DNA from: Opitutaceae bacterium
GTDB lineage: Bacteria > Verrucomicrobiota > Verrucomicrobiae > Opitutales > Opitutaceae
DNA length: 5,964 bases
Direction of reading: 5' to 3'
Assembly (NCBI GenBank): GCA_031266495.1
Contig: JAISAX010000345.1
Span: forward strand, 1 to 5,964
Each line of letters starts with the position of its first letter. Within the stretch, counting starts at the first letter, position 1. The notes beneath the pieces were generated by a model. That model had not been told where the DNA came from, made no database searches, and worked only from the letters and a program-made list of their open reading frames with translations. Shown here piece after piece: positions 3,295-5,964 of the stretch. The position numbers were made by a program, and so were the translations under genes.

Positions 3295-5115
<1,821 letters not shown>

Positions 5116-5149
5116 GGCGGGCACGTCCCGGGCCAGCGCCCTTTGCAAA

Positions 5150-5181
5150 GGAGGCAAGGACCCTCGACTCGCCTCCATTTT
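5150..5181 (+). terminator. Possible weak terminator after typA
   Basis: GGAGGC at 5150-5155 and GCCTCC at 5171-5176 form a 6-bp stem with a 15-base loop, followed by A and four Ts (5178-5181), 35 bp after the typA stop. The loop is long and the T-tract short, so this is a weak candidate. A 12-bp perfect palindrome, CCTTTGCAAAGG, at 5140-5151 overlaps its left edge and could form a competing structure. Confidence 0.3.
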
Positions 5182-5228
5182 CAGTTGTAAGGAACCGTAA
5201 GGAAACAAACGGAGCGAAGATGCGCGCA

Positions 5229-5259
5229 CGCAGCCACACGCCTCCGTGCGTGTGGGGCG
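5229..5259. repeat. Interrupted hairpin with 8-bp inner stem
   Basis: CCACACGC at 5234-5241 pairs perfectly with GCGTGTGG at 5248-5255 around a six-base loop. After a small bulge, CGC at 5229-5231 can pair with GCG at 5257-5259. No T-tract follows. It is probably part of the same repeat element as the hairpins 60 bp downstream, but this is inference. Confidence 0.45.
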
Positions 5260-5317
5260 TTGCCTCACCGCGCTCACCGCGACATCCGATCCGTATTCAC
5301 GGAGCGGAGAGGCAACG

Positions 5318-5358
5318 GGTTTTGGCGAGACGCCAAAACCGGCACGCGAGACGCGTGC
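5318..5358. repeat. Twin perfect hairpins with identical AGA loops
   Basis: The first hairpin has GGTTTTGGCG at 5318-5327, loop AGA and CGCCAAAACC at 5331-5340, a perfect 10-bp stem. One base later the second has GCACGCG at 5342-5348, loop AGA and CGCGTGC at 5352-5358, a perfect 7-bp stem. Both tips read GCG-AGA-CGC although the outer stems differ. The paired layout resembles REP/BIME-type dispersed palindromes. Only one pair lies in this window, so dispersal cannot be shown here. Confidence 0.55.
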
Positions 5359-5471
5359 GCTCCCCGGACCTTCCCGATCCCCGTACACCTGTTACCCATA
5401 TCCCCGGACAGAACACCGATCCCGGGACCCTCCCTGGCGACGCCAAACGCTTGCTCCCAAAAAATCCGGCT

Positions 5472-5704
5472 CTTCCCCCGCAGGGGAAGGGTCGGGCTGG
5501 ACGCAATCGGGGTTTTCCCCCGCGGGGGAAACGGCAAACCGGTCGCCGGGCAGGCTTTCCCCTGCGGGGGAAAGTTCAAACGGGCGGCCAGACAAGGTTT
5601 CCCCCCGAGGGGAAAGTCCAAACCGGACGCCGGGCAGGGTTTCCCCCGCGGGGGAAACCCCAGACGGGCGGCTGGACAGGTTTTCCCCCGGGGGGGGGGG
5701 GAAA
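5472..5704. repeat. Array of six 18-bp palindromes with an exact 42-bp period
   Basis: Six copies start at 5472, 5514, 5556, 5598, 5640 and 5682, always 42 bp apart. Copies 2 and 5 are the perfect palindrome TTTCCCCCGCGGGGGAAA. All copies keep pairing 7-bp arms: TTTCCCC/GGGGAAA in copies 2-6 and CTTCCCC/GGGGAAG in copy 1, where both partners of the outer pair changed together. The central bases vary: CGCA, CGCG, TGCG, CCGA, CGCG and, in copy 6, C plus an expanded G run (12 Gs at 5690-5701; 5 extra bases). The five 24-bp spacers are related, sharing a CAAACxGG...GGxCAGG theme, so the whole 42-bp unit is repeated. Related spacers, a short repeat and no cas genes argue against CRISPR. It could be a protein-binding array, a multi-hairpin RNA or a minisatellite. 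I see no mobile-element gene beside it. Confidence 0.9.
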
Positions 5705-5964
5705 GGGCAAAATGGACTGGACGTGAATCGGCATGGGCGGGAGCAGACAAACGCGTCACGAGGACGCATCCCGGCCACTTTGGCGGGTGGGGCTTGCGGG
5801 GTATCCCGGAAGCGTCCCACCGGCTGCGGTGGCGCGATAATCCTCGCTAACCCGGCTTCCGCTACTGGAGGCATGTAGCGCCGCAAGTCGTTGATCCATC
5901 GTGCAACCTCCGCCGAAGGTCGGGACTACAGGGCACCGGAGGCCCCGGAGCGGATTCGCGGGGG
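5705..5964. other. Unassigned end region, no convincing gene
   Basis: I see no supported gene apart from the doubtful minus-strand frame at 5756-5899. CTGGACGTGAATCGG at 5717-5731 resembles CTGGACGCAATCGG at 5497-5510 inside the first array spacer, so unit-like sequence runs past the last palindrome. A 6-bp hairpin, CCACCG at 5817-5822 and CGGTGG at 5827-5832 with loop GCTG, is present without a T-tract. I found no tRNA-like fold. Confidence 0.4.
5756..5899 (-). CDS. Doubtful 47-residue open frame with a good ribosome binding site
   Basis: On the minus strand an ATG (5897-5899) follows GGAGG (5907-5911) at a 7-base spacing, the best-placed Shine-Dalgarno in the window. The 47-residue product starts MDQRLAALHA, then becomes rich in Ser, Gly, Ala and Arg, and ends at a TGA (5756-5758). 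I recognise no family, signal peptide or membrane segment. All frames are open here because of high GC, so the site may be chance. It points into the palindrome array. Confidence 0.15.
   Translation of the reverse strand: MDQRLAALHASSSGSRVSEDYRATAAGGTLPGYPASPTRQSGRDASS

Follow-up and report, generated by a model that had tools for sequence, protein, structure and literature searches.

Organisation of the array downstream of typA

The window, meaning the whole 5,964-bp stretch of DNA that was analysed, carries typA/bipA and, downstream of it, a tandem array of six palindromes lying between two interspersed repeats. The features of the locus are as follows.

3295–5115, + strand: typA/bipA; the array begins 357 bp past its last base
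5311–5370: repeat A, an interspersed Opitutaceae element with two hairpins, some 100 bp ahead of the array
5472–5489: copy 1 palindrome, CTTCCCC-CGCA-GGGGAAG, outer pair C-G
5490–5513: spacer 1, the most diverged, 10–11 of 24 positions identical to spacers 2–5
5514–5531: copy 2 palindrome, perfect, 18 bp
5532–5555: spacer 2, nearest to spacer 4 (19 of 24)
5556–5573: copy 3 palindrome, centre TGCG, 16-nt core the exact reverse complement of the copy 1 core
5574–5597: spacer 3
5598–5615: copy 4 palindrome, centre CCGA
5616–5639: spacer 4
5640–5657: copy 5 palindrome, perfect, 18 bp
5658–5681: spacer 5
5682–5704: copy 6 palindrome, 23 bp, arms TTTCCCC/GGGGAAA intact, 9-nt centre in a G12 run
5514–5696: 84-bp higher-order repeat, 2.2 copies, TRF score 245
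5846–5930: interspersed repeat B, after the array

The typA of the host shares 83% identity with its counterparts in Geminisphaera colitermitum TAV2 and in an Ereboglobus. The IclR-type gene upstream of typA has an 89% identical homologue in the TAV2 genome, where it does not lie beside typA, its position being incompatible with the typA contig. By these comparisons the host of the array is a member of the Opitutaceae. A 697-aa open frame at 3–2096 gave no Pfam match.

The six dyads start at 5472, 5514, 5556, 5598, 5640 and 5682, a step of 42 bp that is exact all five times. Copies 1–5 span 18 bp each, with 7-bp arms around a 4-bp centre, and over the six dyads all 42 of 42 arm pairs are Watson-Crick. 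The outer arm pair is C-G in copy 1 against T-A in copies 2–6, and the eighth pair, which falls within the centre, is non-Watson-Crick in three of the five full copies. Within copies 2–5 variation was present in none of the 14 arm columns, all four columns of the centre and 12 of the 24 spacer columns (arms versus spacers, Fisher p = 0.0011, an approximate value as one duplication history is common to all columns). When the arm mask was rotated through the 42 registers, zero variable columns were found in the true register only. Dyads with 7-bp arms and a 4-nt centre numbered five in 5116–5964, while 500 mononucleotide shuffles gave 0.086 on average and never more than 2; one more such dyad is located inside typA, at position 3532. 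The initial annotation, made from the window alone, had described six palindromes at 42-bp steps, arms of 7 bp that pair in every copy, a T-A to C-G change of the outer pair in copy 1, and changes confined to the centre and spacers, all of which were borne out. The twelve-G run of copy 6 (5690–5701) may reflect slippage or an assembly error.

The spacers repeat together with the palindromes

Spacers 2–5 are identical to one another at 14–19 of 24 positions, and the units, spacers included, are homologous head to tail. Tandem Repeats Finder (TRF) reported both a 42-bp period (score 196) and an 84-bp period (score 245). Given that the spacers are homologous and that the longer period scores higher, the array is a minisatellite built on a palindromic unit, grown in at least two steps. 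The initial annotation had therefore captured the repetition of the palindromes while underplaying the homology of the spacers between them. Spacer 1 slightly resembles the sequence after copy 6, with a score matched by a fraction of 0.006 of 2000 shuffles. A CRISPR array was rejected, as the spacers are homologous rather than unique and no cas domain was found among the eight window ORFs scanned.

The exact 42-bp phase over six dyads, together with the constant arms of copies 2–5, would suit a row of putative sites for a dimeric DNA-binding protein aligned on one face of the helix, with a role in partition, nucleoid structure or replication, as had been proposed from the window alone. However, because the spacers repeat too, duplication of units would normally yield a constant 42-bp phase by itself, with no need of helical constraint or selection.

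The 42-bp unit also corresponds to 14 codons, and three forward and two reverse frames are open through the array, as a coding repeat would require. Against this, the 16 variable columns are spread evenly over the codon positions (6, 4 and 6), neither of the two open frames searched had a homolog at E <= 0.01, and none of the five open frames had a Pfam match. A coding repeat is hardly conceivable on this evidence and was rejected.

Interspersed repeats flank the array

Repeat A has the sequence TTTTGGCG-AGA-CGCCAAAA, followed by GCACGCG-AGA-CGCGTGC. Many Opitutaceae genomes contain it in several copies; one example, in G224, the MAG Opitutaceae bacterium Nm470_bin120, is 96% identical over 51 bp. 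Repeat B gave matches of 73–80% identity in six Opitutaceae genomes. When the whole region 5116–5964 was searched against 120 genomes of the family, with at most four candidates scored per genome, 26 contained matches, and those listed fell mostly within repeat A and some within repeat B.

The presence of these repeats on both sides of the array and elsewhere in relatives raises the prospect that the array derives from a mobile palindromic element of the REP or MITE kind, as its remnant or an offshoot, and was amplified where it stood, next to repeat A. In another genome, G124, a 32-bp palindromic tandem array of 3.8 copies (L093:1538–1658) is joined directly to a copy of repeat A, indicating that palindromic arrays do arise next to such elements, and a related 42-bp array occurs at another locus in G224 (below). 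The unit was nevertheless not seen interspersed, with one array in 252 genomes, and the flanks of the window array (5380–5471 and 5705–5845) share no exact direct or inverted stretch of at least 8 bp, so that terminal inverted repeats of a MITE are absent at that length. Aligned to repeat A, the window array scored no better than shuffled sequence (227 of 500 shuffles as good) and the G224 array weakly better (12 of 500). Derivation of the window array from repeat A is thus unsupported, its alignment not going beyond chance, and origin from a mobile element is considered unlikely.

Tandem repeats of other kinds were observed just behind typA in two further loci: a palindrome-rich 150-bp tandem duplication (L020:1958–2252), in the same MAG as the related 42-bp array, and a 66-bp tandem repeat with a 6-bp palindrome (L065:7850–7977). 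Both differ in sequence from the window array, and palindromic arrays behind typA as a rule were discounted. In TAV2 the short typA flank (L001, about 4290–4370) consists of AGTAGTCAGTAG-type repeats in an inverted run, followed by an ORF that we take to be M50-like.

Distribution among relatives and viral contigs

The array is not conserved at typA or in the relatives searched. The single palindrome TTCCCC-N4-GGGGAA was present in 0 of 80 typA loci, and a conserved 3’ element of typA was rejected on this basis. Neither TTTCCCC-N4-GGGGAAA nor TTTCCCCNNNNGGGGAAA was found in six whole genomes of relatives, and paired palindromes 11–41 bp apart were absent from 252 genomes of the TAV2 family and from 384 genomes of its class, two sets that overlap in part.

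BLAST of the array against the 252 family genomes, with three candidates scored per genome, gave some match at E <= 0.1 in 89 of them, nearly all short. A spacer pattern allowing up to three mismatches matched in all 12 genomes searched, on both strands and in several near the level of the reversed-pattern control; among the matches listed, a tandem run was present only in G224. A viral or phage source was also considered and rejected: a phage search gave no match, and the paired pattern, which was found in five viral contigs, belongs there to another element (below). The palindrome-plus-spacer pattern had no match in the viral search. The spacer pattern by itself matched 103 viral stretches, which were taken as chance; each of the 80 listed holds a single match, so there is no array among these.

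A related 42-bp array lies behind a different gene

One diverged array exists elsewhere. The best BLAST match to the window array was L106 in G224, at 68% identity over 123 bp (E = 6.8e-6 per genome, or about 0.002 over the 252), which proved to be a 42-bp tandem array of three units. It begins right after the stop of an ORF that, from its sequence, is presumably of adenylate-cyclase type, a different gene from the typA that precedes the window array. The G224 consensus unit is identical to the consensus of window copies 2–5 at 31 of 42 positions, whereas none of 20,000 shuffles, with every rotation tried on both strands, exceeded 26; because this comparison was selected out of a large search, the E-value from BLAST gives the fairer estimate. 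On these similarities we take the two arrays to be related.

Compared with window copies 2–5, the G224 units are identical at 12–19 of 24 spacer positions (17–19 for copies 2 and 4, 12–16 for copies 3 and 5) and at 8–13 of 18 palindrome positions; against window copy 1 the values are 10–11 of 24 and 7–10 of 18. The palindrome therefore differs between the two arrays as much as or more than the spacer does, which argues against sites kept for a dimeric protein. Relative to the window, the G224 dyads have T-A in place of C-G at pair 4 and G-C in place of C-G at pair 6, while pair 5 is an A-G mismatch in both inner dyads. Out of 9 pairs, 7 and 8 remain in these inner dyads, compared with 3 and 4 at the two edge junctions.

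A covariance model trained on both arrays gave some match at E <= 0.05 in 92 of the 252 genomes, mostly weak, and yielded no third array among the 20 loci examined by TRF (L191–L210), of which 11 (L192–L202) were also read. The only 42-bp array among the TRF-checked loci was L191, the G224 array on which the model had been trained.

Pairing is kept more than sequence

Six rows from the two arrays, leaving out the first edge unit of G224, were aligned. Pairing was retained in 92.9% of cells compared with 84.2% in shuffles, and 8 cells were changed on both sides compared with 2.5 (0 of 500 shuffles as high in either case); further pair types were no more numerous than expected, 340 of 500 shuffles reaching at least the same count. 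The rows are few and overlapping, so the eight cells amount to three independent paired changes in the arms: pair 1 in the window and pairs 4 and 6 in G224. Arm constancy within the window is thus accompanied by paired change. On the covariation check suggested in the initial annotation, three paired changes count for covariation, and one mismatched pair and two poorly paired edge junctions count against it. Similarly, the dyad symmetry it regarded as kept holds within the window array and is weaker in G224, where two paired changes are accompanied by the mismatch and the poor edges.

Judged from this alignment, the array keeps pairing more than sequence. Such a pattern argues against a conserved site for a dimeric protein and is open to two readings, selection on a hairpin or a form of mutation that restores pairing. 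Sequence conservation in relatives, which a binding-site array would display, was not found: the palindrome is absent from all six relatives’ genomes, and paired sites are absent from the 252 and 384 genomes of the wider searches. With the divergent palindrome of G224 and the repeating spacers, this leaves the proposed partition, iteron or nucleoid sites unsupported, and such an array of dimer sites is regarded as improbable.

RNA folding and stem content

Selection on pairing could act on RNA: once transcribed, the palindromes would form a chain of 7-bp hairpins, within a 3’ region or a small RNA, serving to protect the transcript or to process it. The paired changes on both sides of the arms are in keeping with this, and region 5462–5715 as RNA folds more stably than any of 200 shuffles, whichever strand is taken (z = −6.15 and −5.60). 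However, the best fold of the + strand consists of long-range pairing among copies, not of six hairpins, and any palindromic repeat set would score in this manner. Stems of at least 7 bp are also in excess behind typA, with 74 in 75 flanks of 400 bp against 17 in shuffled flanks; the mean was 0.30 per bin for 2223 bins of 400 bp from the same typA loci, and we take the excess to be a general trait of intergenic DNA. Single flanks among the 75 contained at most four such stems, and 5451–5850, an interval chosen on the array, contains six.

Further points count against a hairpin chain in RNA. The array begins 357 bp past typA, and the palindrome is missing from the 80 typA loci; no terminator-like or promoter-like site was detected in 5000–5964, and no Rfam match was obtained at gathering scores. 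A chain of terminators was rejected separately, given that 5000–5964 contains no stem followed by a T run and that the arms, with T outside on the 5’ side and A outside on the 3’ side, have the arrangement of a terminator reversed. Taken together, an RNA hairpin chain is considered rather unlikely.

A proposed origin by slippage and self-templating hairpins

We consider it somewhat probable that the array is a local intergenic minisatellite grown by slippage, in which the dyads are kept by hairpin template switching. The 42-bp unit, an 18-bp palindrome plus a 24-bp spacer, would have been amplified stepwise by replication slippage or unequal exchange, with an 84-bp duplication among the steps. 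In single-stranded DNA the palindrome would fold back on itself and favour duplication, and one arm would serve as the template for the other, so that changes in the arms could come in pairs and preserve complementarity, with the centre and spacers left to drift. The slippage, the template switching and the lack of any dedicated function are what we infer here. The template-switching reading suits the array because it needs no function, the array being absent from the relatives searched and its place not conserved. The divergence of spacer 1 at the edge (10–11 of 24, compared with 14–19 of 24 among spacers 2–5) favours a minisatellite, and the position of the related array at another gene is as would be expected of drifting repeat DNA.

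Template switching between the arms of an inverted repeat reportedly homogenises the arms, inverts loops and produces compensatory changes in one event (PMC8794818, PMC8604942), and quasipalindromes have been described as its sites in E. coli (PMC7202029). The reverse-complementary cores of copies 1 and 3 are as loop inversion would leave them; inversion is not proven by them, as the centres CGCA and TGCG each lie one CpG transition from CGCG.

Folded as single-stranded DNA, the window dyads reached −5.3 to −7.2 kcal/mol, energies that 50 of 200 shuffles matched for copies 2 and 5 and 199 of 200 for copy 6, and the G224 dyads reached −1.3 kcal/mol at best. These modest values count against hairpin template switching. 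The imperfect dyads of G224 count against strict maintenance of pairing, whether by template switching or by selection, and constant arms beside diverged spacers are equally expected from selection on a hairpin or dyad. Such selection would act, on pairing rather than on sequence, if the 42-bp unit were a dispersible hairpin module of the Opitutaceae, forming phased arrays as a putative structural hairpin or cruciform on DNA or in 3’ RNA. It is quite unlikely that the unit is of this kind; if it were, phased arrays would have been set down behind different genes.

Under the favoured reading of slippage and self-templating hairpins, kept base pairing could arise from mutation instead of selection. 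As covariation is often read as functional structure, arrays of this type would be useful cautionary test cases.

Comparison with described repeats

The array is a real and well-formed palindromic minisatellite, new in sequence and ordinary in kind. By behaviour the closest described kind is the STAR element of Staphylococcus. STAR elements are likewise intergenic arrays in which a short GC-rich motif alternates with recurring spacers, the last of them distinct, in tandem with a period of about 50 nt and variable copy number, and they have no known function; their motif is a 14-bp direct repeat found at many loci per genome, in contrast to the 18-bp palindrome here (PMC3532100). Among the 252 genomes of relatives searched, one array was found, in G224. 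The minisatellite internal to a MITE of Porphyromonas gingivalis is similar as a bacterial minisatellite tied to a repeat element, and the window array differs from it in having no terminal inverted repeats of at least 8 bp (PMC4596501). REP and REPIN sequences are also short extragenic palindromes; they are dispersed in many copies, whereas the window array is tandem and absent from the relatives searched (PMC3116915, PMC3733652). Literature on palindromic tandem repeats and on Opitutaceae palindromes, screened by title or start of abstract, contained no description of this array.

The five viral contigs with the paired pattern (L081–L085) contain a dispersed palindrome, CACCTTCCCC-N4-GGGGAAGG, that resembles the window array in its paired TTCCCC-N4-GGGGAA dyads. 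We assume these contigs to derive from viruses of gut Firmicutes. The flanks (CCTCATCCG in most) and the spacers are different, and by eye only the dyad is alike. In L083 the dyads are in tandem with a 54-bp period (L083:1477–1642), the palindrome there being CCTTCCCCTCGAGGGGAAGG, similar to the paired palindromes of L081, L082, L084 and L085.
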